Below are positions 1,017 through 54,534 of a stretch of 64,000 nucleotides of DNA, in pieces. The DNA is from Loxodes magnus. Lineage: Eukaryota > Ciliophora > Karyorelictea > Loxodida > Loxodidae. Each line of letters starts with the position of its first letter. Position 1 is the stretch's first letter. The notes beneath the pieces were generated by a model. The model searched no databases. It was not told the DNA's origin and was given only the letters and a program-made list of their open reading frames with translations. A program made the translations under genes and the position numbers. The stretch lies in assembly GCA_946699065.1 (NCBI GenBank), contig CAMPDV010001994.1:1-64000 (forward strand), in the 5' to 3' direction.

Positions 1017-2300
1017 CAGTAAGATGAGTTTAAACAATCATTAAGACATACTAATGATATTAGGCCAATACTCTAGATTGAGTGACATTATGAAATTTAT
1101 TGATTCTAGTCTTTAAGTGATTAGCTAGGTATACAATTTTACTAAGTAAATAGTTAAAAGTATTTAAGATGCTAATAGAGATCATAATCAACATTATAGT
1201 ATTTTAGCTTCTTATTTAGATCCTAGCAATTTGCAGTTTAATATCTTGCTACATAACCTTTATAAACTTCCCTATTTTCAGTTTACATCAAACACTTTTG
1301 AGTTAATGATAGGAGTAAGGTTAACTGTCTAATTGCATATATTAATTAGCTATTAACTAGATTTAGCTCATTTTTATATATCTAACTGAGTTTAATACAT
1401 CATATATGGCATTTTATCTCTACTTTACTAATAATTAAGAATTATCCCTTCTATAGAGATTTATTAATATCTGGAGTATTAATTACTATATATCCATTAG
1501 ATACTCTTATGTATAATAATATAGCTATCTAAGAAACTCTATTTTTAAGAGATTTATCTCAAATGAAAAACACAAGCAACCTTCAAAAGAAGCACTTATA
1601 TATATAGCTAGCTACCAATTAATAACCATCAAAGTATTAAAGGAGAAACATATGAAAATGCCATCAATTAGCCATAGGCCTTTATTTCATTATTATCTAA
1701 TTATATGCAAGATTAGCTACGCCTTTATTAACCTCAGCTCTAAAGGACATCTATAAATCAAATTATATACACTTATATCCATCCTAATTAAAAGCCAAAT
1801 CAAACGGATAAGAGATAGTAGAGAGATATTTTAGCCAAATCAAGCTGTTCTTCTTAGTCAGAAGTTAGAATATTGGCTATAAAATTAGAACAAGAAAGCA
1901 AGTTGGCTTCTTAAATTAATAGTGACAAGTATTATTAGATTATTTAGACATCTGTCAAGCATCAAGAATCAACATATAGCTTCTTAGGTAAGGTGTAAGA
2001 AGCTTTGGATTAATATCATGCTCAAAATTTTAAAAAAGATGAAAATGAATCAAGTTAATAGGAAACATTGTAAGTATCTAAATAGGAAAAGCCACTATCT
2101 CTTATTCAAATCCGATTGAATAAATAGTCTAAAATGTGCCTTTGTGATCCATAAAGCAAATTGTAAAATAGAATGTCCTTGTGGAAATAAAGCTAAAGTT
2201 GATTGTCCTTGTAAAAGAATGGATTATATAAGTTTTAAAGAGTTAATAATAGTCTGTTTTTGTTTGAATGGTTTTTACCTAAATCTATATATATGAAGCT
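180..2300 (+). pseudogene. Degenerate unrecognised coding region
   Basis: I do not recognise this protein. On the plus strand, under the recoded table, short blocks have coding-like make-up: Glu/Lys/Gln-rich, with G enriched at codon position 1. Examples are VEVLALQEQLEEEN near 362-405, DIKELQSEISLSI near 680-720, YLVEKQEADLFTQF near 880-925, and a long block at 1861-2100 with GKVQEALDQYHAQNFKKDEN. A Cys-rich end (CKIECPCGNKAKVDCPC) lies near 2162-2215. The blocks sit in different frames, with at least seven frame changes, so this is either a decayed gene or one with introns I cannot place. The minus strand also reads open here, but its composition is less coding-like. Its 5' part lies in the 1-kb repeat. 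Confidence 0.35.
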
Positions 2301-2449
2301 CTATACATTGTAATATTTGAAAAATGAGTTTAAATGACTAATATAGAAGCTTATTGAATAATCATTTATATGATTAATAACTGAGATAGATCTTTTATCT
2401 TTGTACTCTAAAGTTAAAAGTATAGCTTTATACCCTTAAACTTACTTTT

Positions 2450-4330
2450 TAATCAATTATGAGTTTTTCTGATTCTGTACAAGTTAATACCTTGTACAGT
2501 TACCTAGATTTAATTATAACCTTTTGAAGATAAATGATCTAGTAAGCTCACTAAATTAATAATTTGCTATTAAGATGCTTTTAGTATGAATATTAATAAA
2601 GACCCAATATCTTGGAGTTCTATCAAGTATGAACTTAAGCAAAATATCTATAAGGGATTTTTAAGAGAAAATAGATAAAGTTTTTATATAAGAAATTCAA
2701 ATGATTAATAGAGGAAATTTAGGTTTAGCTATTCAATTAGGAGAATTAATAGCAAGATTAAAGTTAAGAACCTGCAGTTAAACAAAAGTATCCTAGAAGT
2801 AGATCAACAAGGATGTTACATTGTCAATCTAAAATTTCTAAAAAGTGCCTTACTAATCATCTAAAATATCTATCAAAAGTCATACCAATTGACATTGTAA
2901 ATAACCCCTAGACTAATTATTTAGACATCAAGCAAGATTTCCAAATGAAAACCTAGAAAGAGTATAAATATGGAAAATAATGGAATAGTAAAGTATTGTT
3001 AAGACATGTTATTAAATAGAAGGATTCGTCAAATGTCTTGTAGAACAAAGTTTTACTAATATTGCTAGTTAGGAAGACAGAAATATGAAAATAATGGATA
3101 TTTTGTGGTAAATTTAAAAATAAAATCTTAATAATTTCTTATTAAGTAAATTATAATAAAACTCTTATAAACATATATCAAATTAATTAGAATGTATAGC
3201 GTTTCTTAGTACTCGTATTTATGCATTAATTTAATTTTCTATAATGACTAAAAGCATTAGAAGTATAACTTAAGATAATCTCTATAATATACTATATATA
3301 TACGTTCTTGATTCAAACTAAAATAATCTACTCTTCTTTCTTAAGTAAATAAAGTTCTTTATTTATCTTTCAAATCTTATATCTCTATATTGTCTAGATA
3401 ATTTATTCTGAAGACAAATTATTTCTTGATCTTACATTTTTTATTCAACTCAGGATGATTCTAATTATCATTAATCTTTTTTAATATTTCTTAAGAATTT
3501 CCTCTTTATCAAACTTCTTTCCTTGACTTCTTAATAATACAAGCTAACCATTAGATATCTGACTTCTTACATGAAAAGAAGCTAGATAGTTATACTCTCG
3601 TTCATTTTTAGAGTTCTTTTAATAAATTTATTTTATTCCCTCAAGTTTAGGGATATAATTTATCTATTGATATACTCTTTATCTTCAAATCCCTATAAAA
3701 TCTCTTAGAACATGAATAACCTTAAAATATTCTGCTATTTATTCAAGTTAACTAAGCTTTTTATATAATAACATTACTTTATTTTGCTCATCAAAGTTAT
3801 TTACCAGCTTCTATTTCCTACAGATTCTAGTCAAACTTTCTTACTAAGCATGTCAAAACACACTTTTAGACTAAAATCAACTAAACTGATTCAAATTTTG
3901 TTAGTAAGTGAATTAAGAGTTGACTTCATTAATAATATCTTACTCCTATTTAGCTTGAAGTTAATCTATATTTTCTTTTCTAAACTTAACGTTCTATTAC
4001 TTACTGAAATTTATTAGGTTTAATTTGCTTCATACTAAATCTGAGCTTTATTATTTACCTAATAGATATCACTAGCTTATTTATATACCTTAAAATATAT
4101 AATTGAGATAGTATATATTATACTTAGCTTTATCAACTTTTATTACTATATTTTCTAACTTTAATTTGCCTATATGCTTAAGCTATACCTTAATACTCCT
4201 TAGATTTTATCAAATACTTATTTCAATATATCTTCCAAACTTAAAAACATACTAAATTATTTACCTCTAATTTTAAATGCAAGTATAGACTACTTAAATC
4301 TAAGTCAACCTAGAGACTATACAACTTAGT
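2450..4330 (-). CDS. Possible unrecognised gene, minus strand
   Basis: One minus-strand frame reads without a frame break from about 4330 down to about 3290, with TAA/TAG as Gln and a few TGA as Trp. A candidate Met codon is at 4250-4248, followed by FLSLEDILKQVFDKIQGVL. Further on come hydrophilic, Lys/Glu/Gln-rich blocks such as QEVKERSLIKRKFLRNIKK (near 3530-3590) and LQNKLSRQYRDIRFERQIK (near 3360-3415). The frame stays open further down to 2450 and beyond, but there it is less convincing. No domain is recognised. TGA frequency is not below chance, so openness is not proof. If real, it is convergent with the degenerate plus-strand region to its left. Confidence 0.3.
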
Positions 4331-4524
4331 CTTCATAAGACTATACCTTTAACTAATAAATATAGTCTAATTAGTACCTCATATTCAGCGCTAAACATTA
4401 CCTAAATATCCTCTACCAGTATAAATGTACTATCAAGCTAATAGATGCAAGATTTTACTCTAGATATTCTTTTAATGCTATATATTTAAAATAAACATTA
4501 TTGATAAAAGTACCTTTTATTAAT

Positions 4525-7130
4525 GTCCATGGTGCATATTTTCTCTACTTCAATTATTTTTATATTCCTTTTCAAGTTTCCTTAATTAATTTCATCTAAG
4601 AAAATATTTAATTTATTTTTCTATCTTTTTTTTGATGCAGTCTAAATTTTCTCCTTGCTTCTTATTTCATTTTAATATAATTATCAATTTCTTAGCATCC
4701 TTATCTAATTAGATATTTTACTTATTTCGCCTTCTATTAGAAATATTTTGTTAGTTTTTTTGTTTCTACTGTATATTATATTGTCTCATTTAATTTGTTA
4801 CAAAGCCACACATCGCTTACGTCGCTTCTTGGATGTATTCTGATCATTTTTCATAGTATGCTTCGCTATCAAAATTTTCGAACTCGCTAAGATCTATTCT
4901 CTAGAATAATTCTTTGAATCTTTCTTGAACCTTTTCTGCTTTAATTTTTGAAAGTTTATCCATTTAATTTATGGGTTTTTTCGATATTCTTCCGCAATTT
5001 TTATCTTTATTTTGTCTGGCTAATGATCTCCTATTTGTCTCTATTGATAGAATTTTGTGCTGATAATGCTAGGAAATATATACTGATCAGTTAAGAAGTA
5101 TTCTACTTTGAATTTTCCTTTTTCTTAAGTTGTGATGAAGGTTGGATATTAATTTGGATCTTTACGATCTAAAAGATAATCTTTTATCAAGTTAAATAAG
5201 TATTAGCCTGCATTATTATGCTCATACGGTAAAAATTGGGGAATATGCATATTAAAATTCCCTAAAATTAAAATTTATCTATTTGGTGCTTTTTTTTAAT
5301 ATTATAGACTTTCATAAAAGGGTATTAGTTAATCAGAGTCGGATGATGTAGTGCAATATACGTTTTTCAATGCCAGCCAATCATGATCATCAAGTGTTAA
5401 ACCATTTAATCTTCCTCCCTAAAATAATTCTGCTTGTCTGAGATTCGCTATATCTAATACCTTAGTTCTGCTGGTAGTTCCATCTTTTATATAAAATCAT
5501 ACTCCTTTGTAGTGTTTATGTGCTCAATTTTATTATAGCTCTGAATCCGTATATATAAGGCATTTCAGCAGTTTATCCACAAATATTCTTAAATCGCCAT
5601 AATTTCTATTTTCTTTTCACACATAAACTTGCTTAATTCTTCCTTGTTTGATTTTATTCCTCTGAAATTTGCTGTGCCTATGTTTAATTCTGTCTATTTT
5701 ATTATATTAGTATTTCCTTGTACTTCCTATTTTTCTTGATCCTCCTACCCTGCATTTTTAGCTTCCTCTTCTTTAAAGTGTGAAAACCAAATCGTTCTAA
5801 TGCTTATTATTTTTCCTGTACTTTTTTCTTCAATTTTTTTACTCAATACTATCATCTTATATATTTTTTTCTATTTTTTTTAAGACAGTGCTGTATTTAT
5901 GCATACTTCCTTTCTGTCACTGTTTTCTAGTTGTTTCAGTTTTTTTTTCATATTTCCTATTTTATTTTCTGTTTTTTGTGACATTGATAGTTTTGCCTCA
6001 GTTTTATTTATTTAATTTTGAAGTTAAGTATCTATTTTAGTCGATCGCTTTTAAAGTAACTTTAGTATGGCTTAAACTTGTTGTCTTTATTAGAATTAAA
6101 AAGTAGCATTTTATTTGAAGGTTAATCTTCTTCAGTTTTCTTCACTTTCTTTTCCTTCGCTATCAATTTCTCTTTACAGTAAGGCGTTTTATTCCTGATT
6201 TCCGAATGCATCAGCCTGATTTTTACTTCCTTAGCATTTTTAATTGCTTCCTTAATGGTTTTTTTTCTTAAGTATCAATTTGTGCTATACCCTTTTTGGT
6301 TACAGTTCATACATTTCAATCTGATGGATGAATCAAGTAAGGGCTTATACCTCCTTCGTCTTGATTATCTAGTATAATTTCTGCATCTTTGATCTCCTTC
6401 AATCCTAAACAATTTTTCATTTTCCCATTGGCTCACATTGTACCTTTTACGGTTCCGATCTCTGTGTACATATTATTTTTCTGTACTGCTATAGATGGGT
6501 TTCTACCTGGCTTAAACTTGAATACATGTTAAATGTTCAGTGAATCGGGTAGTTCTTAATGTTGTAGAATTCCTCTTTATTTCTTTGCTCTGTTGGTATT
6601 ACAACATTTCTAATCTTCTATGTTTAATTATTTCCGAATTGTGTGAGTGTTTCCTTATTTTTGAAGCATATAATAATAATTCCTGTCTGAAGGAGATTCG
6701 CACTCTAAATATTTTACCATATTCTTAATTCAGATATCTGAGAAATGCTTGAACGATTTCATTTTCTTGCATTTCTGCTGGACTGAGTCTTTGGTTGTAG
6801 TAATTTTCTTATAAACATTTATTGAAACAGGTAACTCCTACTCTTTTAGCAGTTTTGAGCTGTGTATTCCCGTCCTCATTTTATGGTATTTGCTCGTTCT
6901 TTTCTTCTTCCATTATAATGATTTGCACAGAGCTGAGATTTGATATGATGTTCTAAATTACCTACTTTTTTGATAGGTTGCCTAGATTTTAGATTTCTAT
7001 CCTTTTTTTCTGCATTACTTCTAGTAGTTATAATATTTTGTGATAGAGACGTTTTTCTTAAAAATAATATCAAAGATATTTTGTAAAGCTCTTTCATAGC
7101 TTTGTTAAATTTAATAAGCAGTCCCGATCC
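4525..7130 (-). mobile_element. LINE fragment: ORF1 region + endonuclease (copy 1)
   Basis: This is a non-LTR retrotransposon piece read on the minus strand. The 5' part, from a Met codon at 7097, gives a basic ORF1-like protein (MKELYKISLILFLRK...). Nearer the 3' end is an apurinic-type endonuclease. LALKNVYCTTSS around 5340-5370 corresponds to INVYVPTT in the plus-strand LINE at 35985. ILGNFNMHIPQF around 5235-5270 corresponds to the family's GDFN motif, with Asn for Asp. It continues into the linker (QERFKELFQRIDLSEFENF near 4885-4950) and stops at 4525, before the RT. Frames are interrupted several times, so it is dead. The copy at 43365-46030 ends at the same point, so its boundary is that of a segmental duplication. 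Confidence 0.75.
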
Positions 7131-7300
7131 AAGTCTGGCGACATGTGGAATATAGGATATCTACTTGATATAATAGCTTAATATTGTAGTATTTAAGTAA
7201 ATAAAGTAATAATGTAATAATAGATATTTATATACTAATTTTTGATGGTAACTGTTATAAATTAGCTTTTATAGCTTTTGTAGTCTAAATAATAATAAAA

Positions 7301-8695
7301 ATGTAAGCGTTACCAAAATGCTTAATCTGCTTAGAAGATTACAACTTAACTAATGCTCTTCCAACTGTCTTACCTTGTGGACATATTTACTGTGGTTTGT
7401 GTTTGAATACTGAGTACTGATTATAAGGCATAATGTAATGTCCTATTTGTTAAAAAGGATTCCATTTTAGATTTGATGATTTACCTTAAGAAAGTGATTT
7501 AATAAGAATGATATTTTAAAACTAATAATACATATAAAAGATTTAAGATGCTAGATAGAAATTAAAAGAGATAAGGAGGTAAATTATGGAAAAATCTAAA
7601 ACCATTACAACCAAATAATCAAACATTAGTAATACTCTCATAATACCACTAACTAATATCATCATCAATCATTAACCAACATTTATCTACCAAAAATAAC
7701 ACTCAAATATTATCTAATTCTACTAATCACTAAAACCAACTATACTCTAATATAACTCATAACCACCTACAATACTAAAGTCTAAATTAACTTACAATCT
7801 AATAAGATACAAACTATAACACAATACTAAGTAACCAAATATTATTTAGACTAATTAACATAAACTAACCTAACACTTTATATAATCTAACTATATTCAC
7901 TATTTTAATTGAGAAATTTAAAAATTAAGTTTATTTAATATTTAAACAGAGTAATTACGATAAGTCTAAGTTTAAATTATAATTCCAGACAATAATAAAA
8001 GTATAGAATATTAGAATAAGTTATATTTAATTGGATGATATAACTAAAATTAAAAGAAAGGAATAAAAGAAACTTGATAATTTGATTTTGAAGGTAATGG
8101 AATAAAACTTAGTGATCTAAATGAGGGAAGAGGTGGCTTTGGAATAGCAGCTGCTTAAAAATATGTTTATGTGGTTGGAGGAATTACTAATAATTACCAA
8201 CGGTAATAATCAGTAGAAAAGTTAAAGATAGGAAACTAAAGTAAATGATAAAACTGTTCTTAATTTCCATTCTTAATAGCTGAATCAACTTTAGTAGTAG
8301 ATAAAGATGAATAAAATATTTATTCTTTTGGAGGGTTAAATTAGAAAGGATATACTTTAAAAGATATATGAAAATATAACATATAGAATGATAGATGAAG
8401 TAAGTAAAATTTGAGTCTTCCTGAAGCTGTTGTTAGGCCTATAGTTTTTTTAGAACCTTTTATCATATTTGGAGGTATGAAAAATGCATTTACGAAAGAA
8501 TATTCAAGAAGAATATATAAAATAAGCAAAGAATAATGACAATAAAGTTAAATTTTTAAAAATGTTTTAGCTTTAACGGAGATGAAAATAAGAAACAACT
8601 ATGGATATGTTTTTGCTTTAGAATAGGAAAGAGTTTCAATAATGAGGATTGATTTAGAAAAATTGAGTTATAGAAGTATTAGAAGTAATAACTGA
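7301..8695 (+). CDS. RING-finger / Kelch-repeat protein, paralogue 1
   Basis: A complete 464-aa gene under the recoded table, ATG 7301 to TGA 8693-8695. Residues about 7-52 form a C3HC4 RING finger (CLICLEDYN, LPCGHIYCGLCLNTEYW, QCPICQKGF), the E2-binding module of ubiquitin ligases. A Gln/Asn/Ile-rich linker of about 170 residues follows. The C-terminal half has Kelch-type blades (YLIGWYNQNQ, VYVVGGITNNYQ, IYSFGGLNQKG, FIIFGGMKNAF), usually substrate-binding. TGA encodes the expected Trp in TEYW, KETW, SKWQN, DIWKYN, DRWSK and EQWQQ. The paralogue at 46192 has identical length and the same stop. Probably a cytosolic ubiquitin ligase subunit (inferred). The first blade has GW where Kelch normally has GG, so this copy may be the less conserved one. 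A LINE fragment lies just upstream in the opposite orientation. Confidence 0.9.
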
Positions 8696-9052
8696 TAAAC
8701 ATAATAATAATATCTATTTTATTAATAATATTTAAAATAAATATAATTTAATATGTAAAGAAGTAGTTAAAAGATCTTTAATTAGTTAAATATATTACTA
8801 CTTATTAAAATATTTAAAGCGTCTGAAATAAATGAAGAATAAGATTTTATCTAAACATCTTTAAAAGTCTATTATTCAAATATTATCATTATTCAGATAC
8901 AAATATATAGCTTATAATATACCAAAACATATTCAACATAATCAAAAGAACTATCTTTAAATACATCCTTATATTAAAATTATACAAGTACTACTTAGAT
9001 TACTCTATTATTTATCTAATCAAATCAAAACTATAATAAAATAATAAATAGA

Positions 9053-9466
9053 TAAAAATGATTATAGAGCGCATAGCACCTCATTGGCGCGCATCTCTTT
9101 CAATTTTAATATTTAATATTAAGAAAAATGTTCTCATGTTTCTTGTTAAAATTCTAGAGATCTGATGACTAATGTCAGCTTCTCCAAATGGGGAATCTTC
9201 TTATTATAAATTATTCTAAAATCTTGAATCGAATATTTCAGTCTTCTTGAACAAAGTCCAAATAAGAGATAGTTATTAAGTCGGTAATTAGAAGCCCCGT
9301 CAGTCAAACTTTCATACTGCTAGAGAGAACTCTCGGGGTAAGTTAGGTATGCTTCAACGGAGCTTATCCGCCCTTTTACGTGGTGGCATCTAGTGCGAGA
9401 TTACTCGCAATGCAGTATACACTGCACCAGATTGCCTACTAATTTGTCTGACGCGGCCGACATCCA
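9053..9466 (-). mobile_element. SINE family 1, copy 1 (absent from paralogous site)
   Basis: An island of about 410 bp, richer in GC than its surroundings, oriented on the minus strand. It begins GGATGTCGGCCGCGTCAG at 9466 and ends with the tail module GAAAGAGATGCGCGCC...GCGCTCTATAATC near 9053, followed by an A/T-rich run. A second, diverged copy lies at 57825-58238 on the plus strand. The corresponding place in the segmental duplication (near 47935) runs straight from AAACTATAATAAAATAATA into ATTAAGCTATACC with no insert. Imperfect 15-bp flanks (TATAATAAAATAATA / TATAATATATAATAG) look like target-site duplications. No ORF is expected. The polymerase III origin of the 5' end is not clear to me. 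Confidence 0.8.
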
Positions 9467-9479
9467 TTTTATATAATAT

Positions 9480-10635
9480 ATAATAGTTAAGCTATACCTA
9501 CATCTAAATACTAGTTAAGTATCACTACTATCATCAAGTCAAAATCTTAAACCCTTAGATACATTATTCCTTTAATTATTTAAACTAAAATCTATATACT
9601 TAAAAATCCCTTCTATATCCAATAATAAAACCAAGTCATTATAACACCTTAACTCTCGATAAAAACTCAATCATAAGATAAGATAATATAATAGATTATC
9701 TAGACTTCAACATTATTAGTTTTGTTACAAATCAAAATTTTTGTTAAGTTTAATAAAATTCACCTTCTACTTTAAATTTGTTCCAATCTTCGTTAGCTAC
9801 ATATTCTTTGAAGCTGGTTAAGGTAGATAATGATATAGGAAAAATAAGAAGTTAAATTAAGTTGTGGATATGTTGCTAATACTTAAAAGAAACGTTTAAG
9901 AAATGAATTAAAAAAGTATCAAAAATAAATTTAATGAGATAAAGAAAATATTGTATACTAACATAAGATAACAAAAAGGAGATAATGGATTGAAAAATTT
10001 AACATTTTCATGGACTAAATAAATAAAGGTAATTTGAATAGCAAACAGATATGTTTTCACCATTAAACTGTAATTATCTTACTATTTAATATCTAATTAA
10101 AAGGTAAGAACATGAATAATTTCTTTAAACTTAAGAAAATATTTTAGCTATATTAGCCTATTTGATTAACTCTTACTTTATAAGTTATTGAGAAAATACT
10201 TTTGAGTAAAGAAAAGTGACTTTAATTCTATAACTAATCAATTAAATATAATAATTAATTAAATCCATTATAATGATAGTATTGAAGAAATACTAGCTAA
10301 TAAGCAAAATTTACAAAACTTAAAATAAACTTTAAAACTATAAGCTGATAACTTAGTAAATATATTATAAATTATTAATCAAATGCATAATATTTACATT
10401 TTTCCTTTAAATTATCTAAATTAGTCTTTATTAGTAACTAAAAACAATCAAATCATAAATACGCTATTTATTACCATAGTTGAAACAGAATATAATAGTA
10501 AATACTATAATATGTAGCCATATCCAAAATTTAAATACTAGTTTTTATTACTATAGTCATAAATATTTTACTCCAATATAATTATATTAATATCAAAATA
10601 TCATTCATAATTCATTTCAATTTACCTATCTAAAC
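9480..10635. other. AT-rich interval without recognised gene
   Basis: Up to about 9735 this is the downstream flank of the segmental duplication (compare 47937-48190). From 9735 to 10635 I see only AT-rich sequence, with no motif, repeat partner or frame that I can support. Confidence 0.5.
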
Positions 10636-10639
10636 CATT

Positions 10640-11465
10640 TTTCAAATTAAATGGCAGAAGCTCTCAAGAAGGGTTTTTTCCAGCTCCATAGAAAAAGGAA
10701 AGAAAACCAGAGACTGCTAATTCTTCTTCTACCACGTCTTCTTTAATAACATAATAATTTTCTTAGGCTCTTTAACCCCAATATTTAGAAAAATAAAGAT
10801 AATCTTAAATTGAATAAGAAATTAAATCAACAGAAACTAACTAAAGCAAGCGAGGCTTTTTACTCCCATAGTTACAATCAATCAAATACATGAAAAGTGG
10901 TAACTAAAAATAATGTAGAAATAGAAAAATGATGAATAGCTAATAATAGAATAACTTATGAAATCTATTCGTAACCTTTAAGAAGAAGTTGAAATATTAA
11001 AGAAAGAAAACCAAAAATTATTATAGATAAGTTAAAAAAATGAAGAAAGATTAGTGAAACAGGAAATCTAAGTTAAAATTTTTGGAGAAAAAAGAATTTA
11101 ACTTTAGCTGAAAATAAAATGAAACTAGATTACATAAAACCCATAGAGATAACTCCTCCCAGAAGGATCGTCAAGCTGTACTACCTGTGCAAATTAAGAT
11201 TCCACATATACTAGAGATGCAGGATATATTTGGATAAGCAGCGAAGAAACAGTGAAGAGATTTGGAGAGAACTGTCAATGATTTATTTAGACATTGAAGA
11301 CTATTTAGAAGGAGGTTTTTTCAAGGGAGTGTCAAAACTCCAAAAAATTTAGGATTCCCGAACTTTTATTTTAAACCTAAAAGAAAGAACTATGGAGGTA
11401 TATATTGAGGGGTAAAATCCTCTGTAGATAGGAAAACTTTAATTTAGTATATTATTATTATTAAA
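10640..11465 (+). mobile_element. Zinc-knuckle ORF element, degraded copy
   Basis: A retroelement fossil related to the intact ORF at 19075. It opens with an ATG near 10651 and the start MAEALKKGFFQLHRK, similar to MKGLKKGFY of the intact copy. It has a coiled-coil-like middle (LQEEVEILKKENQKL), and near 11180-11230 a knuckle-like block in which the first Cys is replaced (YYLCKLRFHIYQRC against CYFCKSTNHLYRRC). It ends in a short ATT run at 11446-11461. It is broken, with roughly two or three breaks. No reverse transcriptase is attached. It is tail-to-tail with the next element. Confidence 0.6.
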
Positions 11466-11789
11466 AATAGTAAATATTATAATCTTAATTTAAACTTACT
11501 TAGTCTGCTTTTAAGGCTATTTTTGGGAAATTATGTTGTAATTAATATCTTAATTTATATTCTAATTATGTTTTGTTTAAAGATAAAATATTTTCATTTA
11601 AAAATTCAAAAATATCATTGAAAAAAGTAAAAAATCATACCGCTTCTAAATAAAATCAAACAAAAAAAATCCTCAGATACTAAAATATAAAAGAAGGAAA
11701 TAAATCAATCATGTTATAAAAATTAATTAAAAATTAACCATTCATAAACATAACATAGCATAATTTATTAAAGTGACTTCACCTTTATT

Positions 11790-12570
11790 TGGTTTGCCAC
11801 TAATTAGTTTATGAGTTTTAAGATGTAAATGAATCGTTCAGGTCTTCTTCAGAGCTTGCTTCTTCTATTACATATCGTGTTGTACAGATTTTACCTTTCT
11901 TGATCTTAAGAAGTCTTCTTCAATCTCAATTAGATCCCAACATCTTCCTCGTCCTTCTTTTTTGAACATTTACTATATCCAATAGTAATTAATCTCCGCC
12001 GTATAATTTTTCATGTAAATTCTTCCTTCTGGAGAACAGTATAATTTTGTTATATTATTTCATATCTTTCAAGTATTAGATTCTTGCTTCTTCTGAAAAT
12101 ACCAGCATCTTCTAAAGATGTGTCCAACCTTTAGCAATAAAAACATCTTTTTTTCGATATTTAGAATTATGTCCTATTTTTAAGCATTTTTAGCATTTTT
12201 GGAATTTTAAAAAATTGACAATTTTTTTCCAATCCGTAAAAGAATTTAAATTTTATCCTTCTATTACCATAGGATCATTATTAAGATTAAAATTGTATGA
12301 TTTATTAATTTTTACTATTTTTTGCTCCATTTTTTCCAGTTTTTAATTACCTTGCAACATCAAGATTTTAGTGCTTATTTCCGTTTTTAACCATTAATTT
12401 TCGTTTTGTAATTATTGCACAGTAAAAGTTAGAGAATTTAATTGTTAAATCAAGTCTAGAAGTGATTGTTGCATTTTTTGTTTTCCGCTTCTAGGGAGTA
12501 TATTTCGATTAAAGAGTTTTATTTTTCGATTTCCTGTTAGTTTTTGGTCAATTATTTCTTAGGAGCCATT
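11790..12570 (-). mobile_element. Zinc-knuckle ORF element, degraded copy (minus)
   Basis: The same family on the opposite strand. It starts at ATG 12570 (MAPKKQLTKNQQEIEKQNS), followed by a predicted coiled coil and a CCHC-like knuckle split by a break (KRCFYC / GHIFRRCWYF near 12090-12130). Then comes a block matching the intact copy (KLYCSPEGRIY against KLYCNKDGQIY). It is broken, about two breaks. The family may be a LINE ORF1 or a gag-like protein; the sequence does not decide. Confidence 0.6.
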
Positions 12571-12940: not shown

Positions 12941-13451
12941 ATAGTATATAATAATTATTATTAATAATTAATAATAATCAATATTAAATATCAATCATAA
13001 AAAATAAATAAAATACTTAATTAAAATTTTTTATTTATAATCAAGATTATAAACTAACTTAGCATGTATAAATAAAATTTTAACTACTCCACAAAAAAAA
13101 TGAAAATTTATACTCAACTTGAAATTTTTACAAAATCTAAAAATAAATCTATAAAATTTTATAGAATAAAATTAAACTTTAATTTATTATACGTCTTCAT
13201 TTAACAAAATTATATTTTTAATATTTTAAATATTACCACTTTAAATCACATACCTCACTAATTTCAATAACCTATATTACTCAACCTTTTTTATTAAACC
13301 AATAATATTTAAGAATATACAACCTTTTAATAAATAAAGCAAATACTTCATATAACAAAAAACATTATTACCATTCAACATTCATTTAAATGCATAACCA
13401 ATATCTTATATCTTTAATCGTAAAATTTAATTAAGTCAAATAGCAAGTTAC

Positions 13452-14526
13452 TCAACTCGAAACTCTCCACTTTCTTATCGTATTTTCCATCCTCCTCCCG
13501 ATACCAACCATCTATTATCAACACTCAATGCTATAGAATATATTGATACTGCATGCCCTTTTAAAGTCTATATACACTCACCCCTATCAAAGTTCCATAT
13601 CTTGATTGTTCTGTCACCAGAACCAGAAAATATAACACTTGAATCAACACTTAACTGAATACTTGATATAACATCTGCATGACCTTAAAGAGTACGAATA
13701 CACTAACCAGAAGAGAAGTCCCATATCTTAATAGTACTGTCACCAGAATCAGATATTATATACCTATTATCCTTAGACACTATCACCAATAAAACTAAGT
13801 TTGAATGCCCAGTAAGAGTTCGCACAAGCTGACCAGTCTAGAAATCCCAGATCTTTATAGTTGTATCAGAAGATCCCGATATAATATATCTAGAGTCATA
13901 GGAGAGTACTACCGAGTAAATGAAAGAAGTATGTCCCGTTATAGTTTTTATGGAGATCACCATTGAGGAAATTTCAGATCTTTATGGTTTTGTCATAAGA
14001 TCCTGATACGATATAATTAGAGTCAGGGGAGATTACTACCGAGTTAACATATGAAGTATGACTCGTTAAAGTTCTTAAGAGAGAACCAGTCAATGAATTT
14101 CAGATCTTTATGGTTTTGTCAGAAGATCCTGATACTATATAGCTAGAGTCTGAGGATATTACTACCGAGAAAATTGAACCAGTATGTCCCGTTATAGTTC
14201 TTAGGAGACCACCTGTTTGAAAATTCCAGATCTTTATCGAATATTCAGGATATCCTAAACCTGATACAATTCAATTCAGGTCACTTGATATGGCTACTGA
14301 GTAAACAACTGAAGTGTGACCAGTGAGGACTTAGTCTAAAAAATATTAAAGAAATACCTTTACTTTGGTCATAACTGATCTTATTTATTAACTTTTAGTA
14401 GCATAAGTTGGGCAGAATTTCATACTTAAAATGAAGTAGAGATATTTTCCCTAAAATATGGTTTCTCGCTCTTAAGAGTTTTCTTAAAAAAATACTTTTA
14501 GTAAATTGCTTTTCTTTTTTCTCCAT
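13452..14526 (-). pseudogene. WD40-repeat protein, copy A
   Basis: A minus-strand gene, ATG at 14526 to TGA at 13454-13452. A leader of about 60 residues (MEKKEKQFTKSIFLRKLL...) is interrupted by a 22-nt intron (14357-14336, GT...TTTAATATTTTTTAG). Then follow at least seven WD40 blades with GH and IW signatures (LTGHTSVVYSVAISSD, SGSSDKTIKIWN, GSGDRTIKIWNF). Two single-base frame changes interrupt it, near 13950 in the third blade and near 13490 in the last blade, so it is probably a pseudogene. TGA stands for Trp in several IW positions. WD40 domains are protein-interaction propellers; no specific partner can be named. The last blade ends in NTIRKWRVSS. Confidence 0.8.
14336..14357 (-). other. 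Short spliceosomal intron (22 nt) in WD40 copy A
   Basis: On the minus strand: GTATTTCTTTAATATTTTTTAG, phase 1. Removing it joins SYDQSK to DQVLTGH, the start of the first blade. Copies B and C have 20- and 19-nt introns at exactly this place with the same CTTTAAT core. Confidence 0.85.
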
Positions 14527-23849: not shown

Positions 23850-26185
23850 ATGACTTAGAAAGCTTCTTGCTTTTTATGTATTATGATCGATACTACTGGA
23901 TCTATGGGAGATTGGATTGCTTGCTTGAATAAAGTGATTCCGCAATTTATTCGTATTTCAGCTTTGACAGGTGCTTTTACTGAAATTTGTATAATTTCCT
24001 ATAAAGACTATGATAAGCCAACTAAAATGATAGTTACTTCTACTGATTGATGTTAGCCTAATGATACTTCTTTAACTAAGTTTGCTAAGGAAATGAAAGC
24101 TGATGGAAGTGGTGGAATCCAGAAGCGGTAAAAACAGCTTTATATTGATTAGTAAAGCATCTACCTGAAAAAACTTAATAAAAAATCAGAAAAAATCTTC
24201 TTATTACATATGACTGAGGTGTCAGCTCATGAAACTTCTATTACCTTAGATAAAGAGGGATAATTGAATAAAAAAATCTGGCTACCTAATTTGATTGAAC
24301 AACAGTTACTAAGTCGATAATTAGAGTTAAATCTATCTCTTATAATTGTTTCTCATCTTTAGTCAACTTTAATTTGTATGCTTCATTAGCAGAATCTACT
24401 GATGGATTTTATATTCCAGCTAACAAAAATTAATTGGAAACTGATATTATTTCTATTTTTAATGGATGGTGCTGAATAATAAAAACTATATGACAATAGA
24501 GTTCTTAAGCAAAAGTCAAAGAGCATAATTAAATCTGAAGTGGATTTGATGAAGAATTATAATCTTATTACAAGACCAAGTTCTATTAAGCAACCACTAC
24601 TCGAAACACTCCTTTAAAGTTCCTTATATAGATTAAATTCAGATGAATCATATAAGACTATGGTATTTAAACTTTTATCTGATATCATTCAGGATAATAT
24701 TATGACTCTTACAGTTAATAAGATCTTTGGTCGAATATAAAGAAAAATTCGCACGACGAGAAAAGATCCAAGAAGAGATGAGCTCATTAATTTAGTTAAT
24801 TAAAGAAAAAAATTACTTAGCCAAGCTCAAATAAAGATATTTGACTCATGACTACAATAATCATACAACATGCTTGAAGAGGTTTAAAAGGAATTTGAAA
24901 GTCTTGTGAAGGAAATTAATTTAAATTGATGTATTGAATTTATGAGAGACATTAATGATATTTCGTAGCCTTCTGATATGGTGTAACTTTTGAGATTATT
25001 AAGTTCTTCAGATCAAGCTTACATTAAGAATGTGTTTGCAAGATTAACTGTTAATACAGATAAAATATACGACCTTAAATTAGAATCAGCATTACCATTA
25101 AAGATTTCTTCTGCCCGCATATTTTCACTGATACTTCACTTAGCAGCTCCAGGAACTAGACTTTCAGGTAGGAGATTTCAGGCCATTTTAGCAATGATAG
25201 CTCTTGGAACTGTGTTAGACGCTCAAGCAAGAGACTTTTTAACAAAATATAAAGGAAAATGGTTAAATTGTGAAATTAATGAGAAATCCTAAGCTGAAAT
25301 TCCTGAAAACTTCTAATTGAGGTTTTTATATTTGTGCAAGGATGTCGGAAAGGATTTCTTAACTAAAAGTGAGTTTGCTAAAATTTAAAGATTAACAGAC
25401 TTATCACTTTGCAATCGAATTAAAAAAGTGAACGTTAATATTTTATATGCTTCTACATAAAGGTCTTAATGGAATATATAGGACCAGATCATCATATGAT
25501 TTGTAAAACATGTAATAAATCAAGACCTCTTTCGTTAATATTACCTAAGAAACAGTGTTGTTATTGCTATCATAGTGAAGAACCAAAAGAAGTGGCAACA
25601 CCTTAAGCTACTTATTTGGTAAGATGTACTGTCTGTAAATCATGATATTCCAGAGACAGACTTGCGATAGTTCTGAGTAAATCAAAATGTCATGCCTGCT
25701 TAAATGGAATGAAAAATTAGGCAGCTAAATGCTAAAAGTGCAAAGATTTATTTGTTACGTATAATGGTCTTCCTGGAGGTGTATGCAAAGTATGTGAACT
25801 TGATAAGGCTGGACTTGATATGCCTGAACTGAAAATCACTTATTCAGAGGAAAATAAAACAATTAGATAAATTTTTGAAAATTGAGATCCTTCAATAGTT
25901 AATAAACTAGTCGATTTTACTTGAATTAAAGGATTTAAAAATTTAATTGAAATGGACTTAAAGTTGACTGAAATACAACCAATTGACCCTGAGCAAGTGA
26001 AAAAAATGAAAGTATTTTATAATAATAAGCAAATCTTAAATATGTCTGACATAGTTGATAAGATTATAAATGTTACTAAGTCTCATTATATTCAACCATT
26101 AAATTGCGATTTATGTTGCGAACCTAAATCAAAAGATAAACTTGGTAGAGCATGTAGAAGAACTGGATGTGATAGAGTTATTTAA
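23850..26185 (+). pseudogene. vWA-domain protein with Cys-rich C-terminus, frame-broken
   Basis: ATG 23850 opens a von Willebrand factor A domain: CIMIDTTGSMGDW carries the MIDAS motif D-x-T-G-S. Next come ICIISYKDYDKPTKM and, in another frame, NPEAVKTALYWLVKHLPEK. A helical middle follows (24600-25450, for example DELINLVNQRKKLLSQAQIK and LSGRRFQAILAMIALGTVL). The C-terminus (25465-26185) has many CxxC pairs (ICKTCNKS, RCTVCKSW, KCHACLNG, KCQKCKDLF, VCKVCELDK, CDLCCEPK) and probably binds zinc. Frame changes occur near 24116, 24215, 24300-24360, 24500-24600 and 25455, so it is likely a pseudogene, though the long middle and end blocks are well kept. TGA is Trp (for example NLNWCIEF). No TGA is in frame after the last Cys block; reading runs straight into the SINE. 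Confidence 0.7.
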
Positions 26186-26284
26186 CTTTATAAAAAAATT
26201 TAATTTTACAGTCTTAGAAGAGAGCTTCATAACTTACTTCCATTTGATCCTACTCTCTCCTAAACTAAAAGAATTGCGTAGAAC

Positions 26285-26600
26285 TTCATAACATTTCAAT
26301 GGTTCGTAACTCTTTAATAAAAATTTTTAAAGCTAAAAAAATTATTACCGAAGTCTTCCAGAGGGCTAGCATTCTCTTATGAGTCTTGTCTTCTAAAGGA
26401 CCGTGATTGGAATACTACCTTAATCTTAGTATCTGGCATCTTTCAACATTAACACCACTTGATGTCTTTTCAGTCTTGTCTTCTCTTAGCTTCTACCAAA
26501 ATTCTTGTTCAGTTCTTCGCCAATGGGGTATTTTCTGATCCAAAAATTTTAGTCAATCTCAGTTGTGGGATTGATCCTCCTGATTTAAAATAAATAATGT
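26285..26600 (-). mobile_element. SINE family 2, copy 1
   Basis: About 310 bp, alignable with 38262-38582 in the same orientation. Shared blocks include GAAGACTTC, AGAAGACAAGA (twice) and CCAGATACTAAG on the minus strand. The minus-strand 3' end has AAAGAGTTACGAACCATTG, related to the AAAGAGCTG tail of family 1. It sits about 100 bp after the last Cys block of the vWA gene. Confidence 0.7.
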
Positions 26601-36400: not shown

Positions 36401-36514
36401 AAAAGGTTTTTATATTTATAAATTTTTTTATAAATACTTACATGAATTTACTTAATTTTATCAATTTAAGAAGTAAATTGTAAAAATTTATAAGTCTTAA
36501 ATATATTTACTTGC

Positions 36515-37317
36515 TCAGTTAGTAATCTTCCACTTTCTAACTGTCTTGTCATTAGCTTTAGATTTTAACCACTTATTATTTCTACTCAAAGCCACAGTAT
36601 TTACTTTATCTATATGATCTTATAAAGTACATATACATTCCCCCTATGAGAAATTTCGTTTCTTAATAAGTTTACCTTGATTTCCTGATGTTATGAACTT
36701 ATTATCCTCAATTATTAACACTTCACATAATGATTTTTTGATATTGTTCTTATAAATTATCCTGTCTAGAAATTCTCTATCTTAAATGATTTATCACCAG
36801 ATCCAGTTACTATAAAATTATTATTTTTTGATAGCACTATAGATTATACATAATCTGAATGGTCAATTAAAGTTCTCGTACAGTTTCCAGTCTGGAAATC
36901 CCAGATCTTTATCGTTTCATCGTCAGATGCTGAAATTGATCATTTCTGATCATTTGTTATTACTATCGATATAATGTAATCCGTATGTCCATTCAAAGTT
37001 CTCGAAAATCTTCCAGTCTGGAAATCCCAGATCTTTATCGTTTTGTTTCCACTTCCCGATATAGATCATTTCTAATCTTTTGCCATTGCTACCAAATTAA
37101 CTGCAAACGAATGTCCGGTCAAATTTTAGTCTAAAATATTAAAGAATTACTTTTAGATTAGTCGTAGATAATTTTATTTTAAACTTTTAAAAAGCTCAAG
37201 TTTGGCAGTTTTCATATTTAAAAAGAAAAAAAGATATTCTGTCTAGGGATATGCTTCTTTATCTTAAAATTTTTCTTAAAAAATAATTTTAACAAATTAT
37301 GTTTCTTTATTTTTCAA
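36515..37317 (-). pseudogene. WD40-repeat protein, copy B
   Basis: Minus strand, paralogous to copies A and C. The initiator ATG is TTG here (37317-37315). A 20-nt intron sits at the shared position (37150-37131); splicing joins IYDQSK to NQNLTGH. About five blades follow: [61 protein letters not shown] frame change near 36720 precedes the last blades, which end NDKTVRKWKITN and TGA 36517-36515. The lost start and broken frame make it a pseudogene; it is shorter than copy A. Confidence 0.8.
37131..37150 (-). other. Short intron (20 nt) in WD40 copy B
   Basis: On the minus strand: GTAATTCTTTAATATTTTAG, phase 1, at the same position as in copies A and C. Confidence 0.85.
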
Positions 37318-38261
37318 TTTTTATTTTATAAATTATTTTAATAATTCAATAATAAAATAATTCATCTTATGAAAATAATTTTAATTACTTTAAATAAAAC
37401 ACAATTGAATATTTAAATTATTTATTAGAATCTTGGATATAAGCACTTTAATATTAAAAAATAATTTAAAAAATTTATTTTTTCCTTTCGATTAGACTGA
37501 TATAATTTAAAATAGTTAAGCATAATAAAGTTTTACTATTTTAATTATTTTTATTTTTTGCTTTTAGTTTATTTTATCAAAAGTAATATGCAAGAATTTA
37601 TATTCTTATTATAGTAACTTTGCTATAATTTTATTGATAATAGCTTATTTGAGTTTTAAATCTAGATTGTTTAATAAAAAAGGGTAGATTTCTTTTATAA
37701 TTAGATTGAATAATAAGTAAAATATTAGATTCTAATGTATTGAAAATAGGTGGTATTAAGAATAGTTTTTCCTTTGCATTTAATAATAAATTAGTGATAT
37801 AATATTTGATTATTTTAAGAAAATTAGTTAAAATGGTAACTATAGTAAGTAAAATGTATAGTTTAAAGTATTAAATTGTTTATTTTAGAAATTATTATTT
37901 AATTATCCACTTTCTTATTACTAATTCATTTAAACTTTTTATTTAACTAATCTCTTCTTTTATATTTACAAAAGTACTTTATTACTTATAATTCATATTT
38001 AACCTAACCTAATTTCCTTATACTAATTTAATTAAAAAATAAAATAAACCAAATAAATAAGAGTATCACACAGTGAAATGCTTACATTATTTCTAATTCT
38101 AGTTTACAAATTTAAAACCTTTATTAAATAAGCTTTACTATGTTAACTACTTCTATTAAGAAGCTTCAAATTACTATTTACTAATTTATAGTCTAATTTT
38201 AGTTTTTATTTAAATTTAGAAAAAATAAATATCTTTAAAATAAATAATTAATAGATAATAT

Positions 38262-39534: not shown

Positions 39535-40306
39535 ATTGGTAACTAAAATATAGGGAATCTATAAGCATTATTAGTTATTAAAATAATCATATTAATTAAT
39601 TTTTTCTTTATATTTTTTATTTTAATTTTATAATTTTTATTCCATTTTTACCTATTTCTATGTAATTTTCTAGTGAAAAATAATGGTGATATTGAATGTA
39701 TTTAGAAACAAATATTCTAAATTTGTCTAAATAATTTTAAGTTCTTAATTACCTTATAATACCTTAAATTATTTTACTTTTATCTTACTAAACTTTTATT
39801 ACTGCATTTTTTATGTTTCCATCATATTTTTTAAGATTAGCAGACTATTAATCTGATCATTTTGTAATTTATTAAATAAATAGTCTTTCAAATTGATGAA
39901 ATTATAATTTTAATATTTTCATCATTTTTGCTGATTGACAGTTTTTTAAATTTGCAAAATAGTAATTTAATAGCTATAAGTTTCCTATAGTACGTTTTTC
40001 TATTAAATTTAGTTAAATCTTTATTTATTAATTAATAATCAATATATTGCATTTAAGATTATACCTTTAATACTTTATAAATACCTTAAACAATACTATT
40101 TTAACATAACTATCTCAAATTCAAAACTACATTCAATTACCAAAATTACTCATCTCATATTCAAAAACTAACAATAGTACACACAAACCTACAAACACAT
40201 AACCATCCAAAATTAACATACACAAATCTACACTCAATTCCTTAATTCATTACCTAAATTAAACATTTTTACACCAAACTTAAACAACACCCAAATACTT
40301 AGAGAA

Positions 40307-40940
40307 ATGGCTAAAACATTTTAGTCCTTATAGACTAAATTTAGGATCTGGAAAAATATATGCTCTTGCTGGGACCATGAAAATAAACACAATAAAAAAG
40401 GATCTTATACAGCACGAGGACGATAATGAAATCCACATAGTGGATAGATAAGCGAAAACAAGAAATAAACAGATTTTCTACAGATTTAATTAAGAGAATT
40501 TTGCCTATACGAAAATTAAATTATCCATTTAGAAAATTAAGAAAAAAAATCTAAAAAAATAGAATTGAAAAGCATAATAAGTTAGACTATTCCAAGTGAT
40601 GCTATATTAATAGAAATTAAACAGTCAACAATTAAAACTTAAACAAATTTGAGCCATAAAAAGATTAAGAATGTAGAATTTGCAATAAGATAGGACTCTA
40701 TTGGAAAAAATGAAGGAAAGAGAAAAAAACTGAAAGATAAGTATTGAAATATGATGATCTCCATTTATTCAATATCGTTCAGAAACATATATAAGAAGAA
40801 GTAAAGAAATTCTAATTTGTTCAATCAATCCTTAAAATATGAAGTCTGGAGTAGATAGAACAACAAAGGAATAAATATTAAGGTAGGAACGAAGTGAAAA
40901 ATATTATTATAAAGGATTTATTTAACAAATATTGATTTAA
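40307..40940 (+). pseudogene. Possible coiled-coil / Cys-His ORF remnant
   Basis: ATG 40307 starts MAKTFQSLQTKFRIWKN, then a Cys/His cluster (ICSCWDHENKHNKKG) and a coiled-coil-like stretch (YENQIIHLENQEKKSKKIEL). A frame change near 40730 leads to DDLHLFNIVQKHIQEEVKKF. The architecture recalls the zinc-knuckle elements, but the knuckle spacing does not match CCHC, so membership is uncertain. Confidence 0.35.
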
Positions 40941-41499
40941 ATTTCCTTTTTAATTAAATACAGCCATTTTTATAAAAGCAAGGTTGAATATTTGCAAAAT
41001 GATGATAATTAAATTTGCCAGTTGTAAAATAATAAAAATGAATATAAATTTGTATTTAAGCTTAATAATGTTAGCAAGTATATGGATGTTTACTATATAC
41101 ATTAAAAGTATTAATAATAAGAAAATGTAGAATAAATTTATAATTGTAAAGCTATATTTTATTTAATAAATTATTGTATATAAATATTTTTTTATTTAAA
41201 TATAAAAAGCAATAATTTAAGTTGTTAATACTAATCAAATATTCAAATATTATCCTTAGTTTAATATCTTATTTTCAATATACAATCGTACCTGTCTCTA
41301 GTTTATTCAATCATAGCTTTTAATTTTAGTCTATCACTTTTATGCATATTATTATTTTATACATTTCTAGATCAAACAATCCAATTCCTAATTTTTACCT
41401 ATCATTTTCTTATAACGTATTTATTACCCAGCAGAACCAGCTGATACAAGTATATTAACTAAAGGTGCTAGAGTAACTGAAATAACTAAAATATCTTAC

Positions 41500-42272
41500 T
41501 AAAAGTAAGTAAAGCAAATAAGGAGAGTAAAAGCCCTGTAGAGAGACAAAGAAGAGATAGATCGGGTGATCATGGAAAAGTCTTAGCTGATCATAAGGCA
41601 AGCTTACTCTTATGTGTACAACTCCAGGTCAATATTTATTGGTCTACAAAGGATCTATCCTTTCTGCTTGTATGTGATTACTCGTTCTATTCTGTTAACA
41701 GAAATGAGGAGAGCTTGGGGATATAAAAAATATTGTTTTCATAAGTAGATAGAAGGTATCGCTCCCAGATTAGATTCTGACTTAGAGATGTTCAGTCATA
41801 ATCTATACAGATGATAGCGTAACCAAACGGGCTGTTCAACCAATGGCAATACCAGTGATCTGGACCAACGGTTCCTCTCGTAGTGAGTTGGATTATTATG
41901 GCGATGCAGTAATCAATACAATAAAATTAAACTGGCTCACTATGGTCTAAACTCAGCTCACGTTCTCTTTTGACGGATGAACAATACGACACTTGGTGAA
42001 TTCAGCTTCACAATGATAGTAAGAACCGACATCGAAGAATCAAAAGGCAACTTCACTATGAACACTTGGCTGCCACAAGCCAGTTATTCCTGTGGTAATT
42101 TTTCTGACACCTCTGGCTTAAAACTTGTAAAAGGTAAAGGATCGATAGGCCATGATTTCCCAGTTCATCCTGACAATGAGAGGTTGAGCGAAGCCAGCTT
42201 TTCCCCTTTTGGTCTATGAGCGGTTTCTGTCCGCTCTGAGCTGGCCTTAGGACACCTGTGTTATCTTTTAGT
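41500..42272 (-). pseudogene. 28S rRNA 3'-region fragment, diverged
   Basis: The plus strand reads as the complement of the 3' part of eukaryotic large-subunit rRNA. Recognisable blocks are CTTGGCTGCCACAAGCCAGT, GATTCTGACTTAGAG, CACTTGGTGAATTC, AACTCAGCTCACGTTC and AAAGGATCGATAGGCC. The sarcin-ricin region is mutated: GTTCCTCTCGTAGT where rRNA has CTCGTACT. Many other conserved positions differ too, so this is not a working gene. No 18S, 5.8S or spacer is seen beside it. The short open frame at 41977-42219 is only an antisense shadow of it. At 42258-42290 it runs into TCTTTTAGTTGAAATTAATT, a tail also found on other retroposons here. Confidence 0.85.
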
Positions 42273-42289
42273 TGAAATTAATTTAATAG

Positions 42290-46030: not shown

Positions 46031-46191
46031 AGAATGTGATATTGCTACTTGATATAATAGCTTAATATTGTACTATTAAATAACTACTATAAATAAAGTA
46101 ATAATGTAATAGTTGATATAATTGAGTGTATTTTTGATGGTAACTGTTATAAATTACCTTTATAGCTTTTGTAGTCTAAATAATAATAAAA

Positions 46192-47586
46192 ATGTAAGCG
46201 TTACCAAAATGCTTAATCTGCTTAGAAGATTACAACTTAACTAATGCTCTTCCAACTGTCTTACCTTGTGGACATATTTACTGTGGTTTGTGTTTGAATA
46301 CTGAGTACTGATTATAAGGCATAATGTAATGTCCTATTTGTTAAAAAGGATTCCATTTTAGATTTGATGATTTACCTTAAGAAAGTGATTTAATAAGAAT
46401 GATATTTTAAAACTAATAATACATATAAAAGATTTAAGATGCTAGATAGAAATTAAAAGAGATAAGGAGGTAAATTATGGAAAAATCTAAAACCATTACA
46501 ACCAAATAATCAAACATTAGTAATACTCTCATAATACCACTAACTAATATCATCATCAATCATTAACCAACATTTATCTACCAAAAATAACACTCAAATA
46601 TTATCTAATTCTACTAATCACTAAAACCAACTATACTCTAATATAACTCATAACCACCTACAATACTAAAGTCTAAATTAACTTACAATCTAATAAGATA
46701 AAAACTATAACACAATACTAAGTAACCAAATATTATTTAGACTAATTAACATAAACTAAGCTAGCACTTTATATAATCTAACTATATTCACTATTTTGAT
46801 TAATAAATTTAAAAATTAAGTTTATTTAATATTTAAACAGAGTAATTACGATAAGTCTAAGTTTAAATTGAAATTCCTGTTGGTAATAAAAGTATAGAAT
46901 ATTAAAATAAGTTATATTTAATTGGAGGATATAACAAAAATTAAAAGAAAGGAATAAAAGAAACTTGATAATTTGATTATGAAGGTAATAGAATAAAACT
47001 TTGTGATCTAAATGAGGGAAGAGTTCACTTTGGAATAGCAGCTGCTTAAAAATATATTTATGTGGTTGGAGGAATTACTAATAATTATCAAGTTTTATAA
47101 TCAGTAGAAAAGTTAAAGATAGGAAACTAAAGTAAATGATAAAACTGTTATTAATTTCCATTCAAAATAGCAGGCTAAACTTTAGTAGTAGATAAAGATG
47201 AATAAAATATTTATTCTTTTGGAGGTGGAAATTAGAAAGAATAGATTTTAAAAGATATATGAAAATATAATATATAGAACGATAGATGAAGTAAGTAAAA
47301 TTTGAATATTCCTGAAGCTGTTGCAAGGCCTATAGTTTGTTTAGAGCCTTTTGTCATATTTGGAGGTATAAAAAATATATTTACGAGAGAATATTCAAGA
47401 AAAATATATAAAAGAAGCAAAGAATAATGGCAATAAAATTAAATTTTTAAAGATGTTGGAGCTTTAACAGAGATGAAAATAAGAAATAACTATGGATATG
47501 CTTTTACTTACGAATAGAAAAAAGTTTCAATAATGAGGATTGATTTAGAAAAATTGAGTTATAGAAGTATTAAAAGTAATAACTGA
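46192..47586 (+). CDS. RING-finger / Kelch-repeat protein, paralogue 2
   Basis: Complete, 464 aa, ATG 46192 to TGA 47584-47586, the same length as paralogue 1. The RING finger and linker (residues 1 to about 185) are virtually identical at DNA level to paralogue 1. The Kelch half differs at many residues yet stays open, and fits the Kelch consensus better: YLIGGYNKNQ, IYVVGGITNNY, IYSFGGGNQKE, FVIFGGIKNIF. All the internal TGA-Trp codons are retained. Probably a functional ubiquitin-ligase-type protein whose substrate-binding propeller has diverged from its twin. The upstream flank is the opposite-strand LINE fragment, so any promoter must lie in the short 46030-46190 gap or within LINE sequence. 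Confidence 0.92.
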
Positions 47587-53989: not shown

Positions 53990-54530
53990 ACATTTAACTT
54001 TATTTATTAAATGTTTTTTAATAAATAGTTAACAATACAATACTTCTTAAATAAACACTTATTTATTTATTTTAGTTACTAATAAAGAATAATTTTATTA
54101 AAGATAATTTAAAGGAAAATTAATTAATTAAATATTATACATTTTATTAATAATTTATAATATATTTATTAAGTTAGTAGCTTATTATTTTAAACTTTAT
54201 TTTAACTTCTCAAAACTAAATTTTCCTTATTAGCTAGTATTTTTCTACTCTAAATAAATAGCTTTAGTTTAAGATTGTAACATCCTAAATCAAACTTTTT
54301 TGTTAATTAAGCTATTCTTTTTTTTATTCTTTTCAAATGTTTAAACCTTTTAAAAAATTCTCTTATTTTGCTTGTTAAAATAAAACTTAAATCTTCAATT
54401 TTATTTAGAATTATCTAACTGTTCCAATCCTTCTTCTATATTTCTTGTATTATGATTATAGCTTGATTTTAATAATTAAATCCTTAAATTGTAAATTAAA
54501 AGTTTTAATATTTATTACTTTCTCTCAACT
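53990..54530. other. AT-rich flank of WD40 copy C
   Basis: No feature recognised; AT-rich sequence downstream of the WD40 pseudogene. Confidence 0.4.
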
Positions 54531-54534
54531 TACT

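Follow-up and report, generated by a model that had tools for sequence, protein, structure and literature searches.

TGA codons inside and at the end of genes in Loxodes magnus, and a RING-Kelch family with constant and hypervariable halves

Parduczia sp. is a karyorelict ciliate. In 2016, UGA was described as ambiguous in this organism (PMC4967479). For Loxodes magnus, the paper on its assembly (PMC11441545) gives the code as NCBI table 27, in which UAA and UAG specify Gln and UGA is either Trp or the sole stop. It also gives mean lengths of 53 bp for the 3' UTRs, which are short, and 19.3 bp for the introns. UGA has been reported to be read by a tRNA-Trp whose anticodon stem has 4 bp, and this form has been reported for Loxodes too (PMC13092985). 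The table 27 reading for L. magnus is already known as a published case and is not new.

The window analyzed here is the whole stretch of 64,000 nucleotides of L. magnus DNA that carries the features in Table 1, and genome-wide searches were made in the organism's own assembly (705,730,643 bases in 7843 contigs). Judged from its sequence, the nuclear code of the window is almost certainly table 27, where TAA and TAG encode Gln, and TGA means Trp inside the gene and stop at its end. No codon is a dedicated stop under this code, and termination must therefore depend on position in the mRNA. A standard-code reading would truncate the genes examined here. The RING-Kelch gene family, rather than the code, may be the newer observation.

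TGA codons in the RING-Kelch copies and their family

The window contains two RING-Kelch genes (copies 1 and 2) whose proteins are 90% identical. The initial annotation had described two intact paralogues with the same final TGA, and this description holds: both are intact frames of 465 codons once TAA, TAG, and TGA are read as sense, each closing in a TGA that is followed by TAAAC. In both copies, Pfam assigns residues 7-52 to a RING finger and residues ~205-417 to Kelch repeats, so that the two domains are on one chain. That the two copies share their internal TGA codons proved true in part. Copy 1 has eight (codons 40, 204, 246, 259, 316, 357, 366, and 413) and copy 2 has five (codons 40, 259, 316, 357, and 366); five of the eight in copy 1 recur, but codons 204, 246, and 413 are TAA, GGA, and TGG in copy 2. 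The internal TGAs had also been placed where Kelch and RING proteins have Trp. Codons 316 and 366 do fall on Trp of solved Kelch chains (in an alignment in which TGA was entered as W and not masked), but codon 246 falls on a Kelch Gly.

Table 1. Coordinates of features in the window; family counts refer to 22 distinct ORFs unless stated otherwise.
Feature	Position	Strand	Remarks
RING-Kelch gene copy 1	7301..8695	+	464 residues and terminal TGA under table 27; translation, Pfam RING and Kelch
RING-Kelch gene copy 2	46192..47586	+	464 residues and terminal TGA; translation, Pfam
Internal TGA, codon 40	7418..7420	+	in RING finger; TGA in 22/22
Internal TGA, codon 204	7910..7912	+	family: TGA 12, TAC 5, TAT 3, TTT 1, TAA 1
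Internal TGA, codon 246	8036..8038	+	second Gly of Kelch Gly-Gly; GGA in the other 21 ORFs
Internal TGA, codon 259	8075..8077	+	family: TGA 17, TGG 5
Internal TGA, codon 316	8246..8248	+	Kelch Trp; TGA in 22/22
Internal TGA, codon 357	8369..8371	+	TGA in 22/22
Internal TGA, codon 366	8396..8398	+	Kelch Trp; family: TGA 5, TGG 17
Internal TGA, codon 413	8537..8539	+	TGG in copy 2; family: TGA 10, TGG 12
Terminal TGA, codon 465	8693..8695	+	followed by TAAAC; TGA in 22/22
Constant block, leader and RING half	7268..7800	+	nucleotide diversity close to zero (28 distinct sequences)
Variable Kelch half with hypervariable codons	7841..8692	+	family diversity
Possible LINE-type endonuclease remnant (Exo_endo_phos_2)	5113..5364	-	E 1.5e-4, below curated cut-off; divergent neighbour

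In the ordinary ciliate code (NCBI table 6) TGA would be the only stop, and the RING-Kelch copies would be decayed pseudogenes or would carry introns over their internal TGAs. The number of internal TGAs is compatible with this reading, as 8 and 5 are observed where base composition predicts 8.9. The count alone is uninformative and therefore the argument rests on the conservation of the TGA codons and not on their number. The TGA at a Gly site in copy 1 (codon 246) would also suit table 6, as would the dN/dS of 0.65 in the Kelch half (codons 181-464, 22 ORFs) if the copies were decaying. The version with introns is opposed by the sequence around the TGAs, since seven of the eight internal TGAs in copy 1 lie in no GT..AG stretch of 15-30 nt. 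Codon 40 is the only internal TGA with such candidates (27 and 29 nt), and removal of the 27-nt candidate, which keeps the frame, would leave just three residues between two RING cysteines.

The conservation of the TGA codons was followed through the RING-Kelch family. When the organism's own genome was searched at the protein level, at least 91 near-full-length relatives were scored. Thirty loci were retrieved, one of which (L009) is copy 1 of the window, and the 32 entries compared correspond to 31 loci. Some of these may be alleles or duplicate contigs, given that the ORF is identical in four loci from different contigs. Codons were compared in 22 distinct ORFs of 1395 nt, a set that omits L018 (1404 nt) and L028 and L029 (end strings not found); all three belong to the set of 28 distinct sequences used for indels and diversity. 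Codons 40, 316, 357, and 465 are invariably TGA, and codons 259, 366, and 413 are exclusively TGA or TGG. The other columns with TGA are mixed, including codon 204 (Trp, Tyr, Phe, or Gln), codon 231 (hypervariable), and codons 246, 254, and 311 (mostly GGA). The columns restricted to TGA and TGG argue against table 6.

The distribution of indels argues in the same direction. The alignment of the 28 distinct sequences covers the ORF together with 1500 nt before it and 350 nt after it, and ten entries at the alignment end (9045) were omitted as artefacts. The ORF has a single distinct indel (9 nt, in the variable half) compared with 113 in the upstream region 5951-7267 (14 of which are multiples of three), two in the leader (7268-7300), and 20 in the region downstream of the ORF. 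The open frame of the RING-Kelch family is more than chance. Based on these observations, and on intact tubulin and actin genes in which invariant Trp sites hold TGA (described below), table 6 is a very improbable code for the window. The next in-frame TGA past the terminal one was counted in 30 of the 32 entries, with copy 1 entered twice: none occurs within 200 codons in 17 of the 30, it lies at 109-190 codons in 12, and it lies at 14 codons in one. The karyorelict code is expected to deplete UGA in roughly the last 20 codons; in the same 30 entries, all of a single family, the last internal TGA is at least 52 codons ahead of the end.

Codon meanings in independent genes, tRNAs, and release factor

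Genes outside the RING-Kelch family also have TGA at Trp sites and at their ends. A beta-tubulin gene (L077), translated with TGA masked as X, aligns without gaps to PDB 6u0h and its three X fall on Trp101, Trp344, and Trp397. Within the aligned part, TAA and TAG fall on Gln of 6u0h in 14 of 14 cases. The acidic tail of L077 is followed by a terminal TGA. In an actin gene (L075), a masked TGA falls on Trp of the motif N-W-D-D-M-E-K-I-W, and a TGA stands directly after K-C-F, where the PDB chain ends. Each of these two genes contains both meanings of TGA. Seven actin/tubulin-type loci were additionally compared with in-genome TGG paralogues (actin L060 and alpha-tubulin L058). Leaving aside a TGA at what is presumably the end of L080, 12 of the 20 internal TGAs fall on Trp. 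Three more are at an alpha-tubulin Phe site that is Trp in beta-tubulin 6u0h, and the remaining five are on Q, G, I, A, and H. These five, together with RING-Kelch codons 246, 254, and 311, are TGAs at non-Trp sites and count against table 27. Alpha-tubulin and actin genes are present as tens of nearly equal-scoring copies (C64:618455-934632; C266, C437, C524, C707, and C711).

A terminal TGA follows G-E-R-T in 5 of 5 canonical histone H3 loci, K-C-F in 6 of 6 actin loci, and the acidic tail in 6 of 6 alpha-tubulin loci. Closely similar copies make up all six of the alpha-tubulin loci and four of the actin ones, which are therefore not independent. Six variant H3-like loci without the conserved C-terminus and one H2B-like locus were excluded from these counts; the H2B-like locus also has TGA after its last residues. 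These ends bear on a Condylostoma-type code (NCBI table 28), in which some genes would also end at TAA or TAG. Such ends are found in none of the 17 loci with a defined C-terminus (5 H3, 6 actin, and 6 alpha-tubulin) and in none of the 22 distinct RING-Kelch ORFs, and UGA is named as the sole stop in the main text of PMC11441545. Table 28 could still apply to genes beyond those examined, but it has no better prospects than the ordinary ciliate code. Selenocysteine at the internal TGAs is less likely still: TGA is the usual codon for this residue, but homologues have Trp at these sites, TGA alternates there with TGG, and TGT and TGC are absent from the TGA columns.

Table 27 was also considered for other genes of the window, in which the initial annotation had seen agreement at the I-W-D/N motifs of WD40 copies and in a Cys-rich gene. 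The WD40 stretches are on the minus strand (13142-14320, 36487-37416, and 54499-55557). Their I-W-D/N motifs, as counted by a script, have TGA in 2 of 14 cases (13974 and 14100) but TGG in the other 12, and the TGA-rich WD40 site is K/Q-W-I-V-S-G, with TGA in 4 of 5. The Cys-rich reading at 25469-26389 contains TGA in frame and gave no Pfam match, and speaks neither for nor against Trp. A long coding-like stretch at 61498-63978 contains many TGA codons and has no Pfam match.

A Gln-type tRNA pattern matched 260 places genome-wide, compared with 0 matches for the reversed control. Four tRNA-Gln-type loci were scanned, and the anticodon is TTA in three and TTG in one. The anticodon-UUA tRNA-type genes (L064-L066, C214:232596-237602) lie partly in a tandem array with units of ~275 bp. 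A Trp-type tRNA pattern matched 127 places, and the anticodon is CCA in all 100 matches listed even though the pattern would also match TCA. The anticodon stem has 4 bp, with the top pair broken (A.C or T.C), in 97 of the 100 matches listed of 127, all of them on tandem arrays of C67 and C148. A full 5-bp stem, which counts against the proposed decoding, is present in three of the 100 matches listed of 127, all on C110. Two of these three genes have flanks that are 78-90% identical and may be copies of one repeat. Loci L068-L073 (C110, C67, and C148) are tRNA-Trp(CCA) genes, with long tandem arrays of the 4-bp-stem form. C196 contains two genes of eRF1 type, in which R-A-Q-N-I-K-S and F-L-C-E-N-T-F are present.

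The initial annotation had proposed a karyorelict-type code. This proposal is supported, in gene sets that are small and chosen, by beta-tubulin and actin genes that each have TGA both where Trp is invariant and at the C-terminus, by TAA and TAG on Gln throughout L077, by the anticodon-UUA tRNAs, and by tRNA-Trp(CCA) with a 4-bp stem. In the proposed mechanism, tRNA-Gln-type genes whose anticodons match UAA and UAG would have these two codons read as Gln. Within the coding sequence, UGA would be decoded as Trp by tRNA-Trp(CCA), for which most of the listed genes have the loosened 4-bp anticodon stem, and the terminal UGA would act as the sole stop and be released by eRF1. The codon meanings, the terminal codon of the examined genes, and the tRNA gene sequences come from this analysis. 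The role of the 4-bp stem as the UGA reader is taken from papers, as is the switch between the UGA meanings, which would be closeness to the poly(A) tail. The RING-Kelch genes of the window are presumably transcribed and translated.

Constant and hypervariable halves of the RING-Kelch family

The RING-Kelch family units in the window are at 7268-8692 and 46159-47583. A RING stretch of 100 nt (7421-7520) has 280 exact places genome-wide. A Kelch stretch of 74 nt has one exact match and 48 matches with up to three mismatches, a contrast that is partly by choice since the Kelch stretch is shorter and includes hypervariable codons 346 and 350. Nucleotide diversity per 60-nt block in the 28 sequences is 0.000-0.002 at 7301-7780, 0.09-0.32 at 5801-7240, and 0.026-0.117 from 7841 onward. 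Synonymous divergence among the 22 ORFs is 0.000 in codons 1-180 and 0.096 in codons 181-464. The dN/dS of the Kelch half is not above 1 and the case for diversification therefore rests on single codons. At least five amino acids occur at 18 codons (eleven at codon 205), and counts of extra amino acids at the single codons of 181-464 are over-dispersed (mean 0.78, variance 2.0). Biallelic site pairs fail the four-gamete test in 277 of 454 cases at less than 100 nt and in 871 of 1437 cases at wider distances, suggesting that the copies have recombined or undergone repeated change. The signature of a diversity-generating element (adenine-only changes) was rejected, as the hypervariable codons change at other bases too.

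Certain offsets from the Kelch Gly-Gly pair were assumed to be the ligand-contact positions of Keap1. When four blades are placed relative to Gly-Gly, mean entropy is 0.84 bits at these offsets compared with 0.27 bits elsewhere, a result matched by 3 of 20000 random sets in a test that was not blind, with the offsets set after the variable positions had been seen and the sites placed by repeat position alone. The pattern fits a constant E3 half homogenized by gene conversion and combined with a diversified binding face. It was observed in 28 sequences and in genome-wide counts, while any function assigned to the family is inferred. Provided that the pattern holds, the pairing of a constant effector half with a hypervariable binding half at hundreds of places would be the layout of a recognition repertoire. 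The family may, as a tentative suggestion, be a huge repertoire of this type, with 280 identical RING halves (presumably through gene conversion) and about 18 codons diversified on the presumed Kelch ligand face. It is similarly conceivable, without being favored, that each copy marks its own target for ubiquitination, for instance in self/non-self recognition or recognition of intracellular parasites. Extensive genome editing was not detected in this ciliate. A limited literature search of open papers, including the main text of PMC11441545, found no description of a RING-Kelch repertoire in Loxodes.

The minus-strand regions 4516-7196 and 43362-46080, which hold the weak LINE-endonuclease match, form a repeat with the RING-Kelch gene in a head-to-head arrangement. 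More than 1 kb of the endonuclease-side flank adjoins the gene in 32 of 32 entries. Pfam detected no reverse transcriptase near the endonuclease match, which was the single hit in the frames translated there (three minus frames each of 4600-7260 and 43450-46150; three plus frames of 8700-12000), and no match in the three minus frames each of 1500-4700 and 40300-43500. The window also contains a fragment of eukaryotic LSU rRNA (41559-42281, minus strand), which has three Rfam matches and is not a whole gene, and a direct repeat of 1016 bp that is 99.9% identical (1-1016 and 51489-52504).

Comparison with described systems

The codon meanings are the same as those of L. magnus table 27 in the main text of PMC11441545, with no difference found. 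They are also like the code of Parduczia sp. and Condylostoma magnum in PMC4967479, where UGA is Trp internally and stop terminally. According to that text no tRNA-Trp(UCA) was found in C. magnum, and there is likewise none here among the 100 matches listed of 127. C. magnum also terminates genes at UAA and UAG in the same account, whereas no such end was seen among the genes examined here. The 4-bp-stem tRNA-Trp genes have the same top-pair break and the same anticodon CCA as those in PMC13092985; here, 97 of the 100 listed are in the C67 and C148 arrays and the three with 5-bp stems are on C110.

The RING-Kelch proteins share the RING finger with RING-type E3 ligases, and they share Kelch blades with a Gly-Gly pair and Trp with Kelch proteins such as Keap1. 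Unlike Keap1-type Kelch proteins and RING E3s, the family combines RING and Kelch on one chain and has 280 RING places. It differs further from both in that the RING half is near-invariant while the Kelch half is hypervariable.
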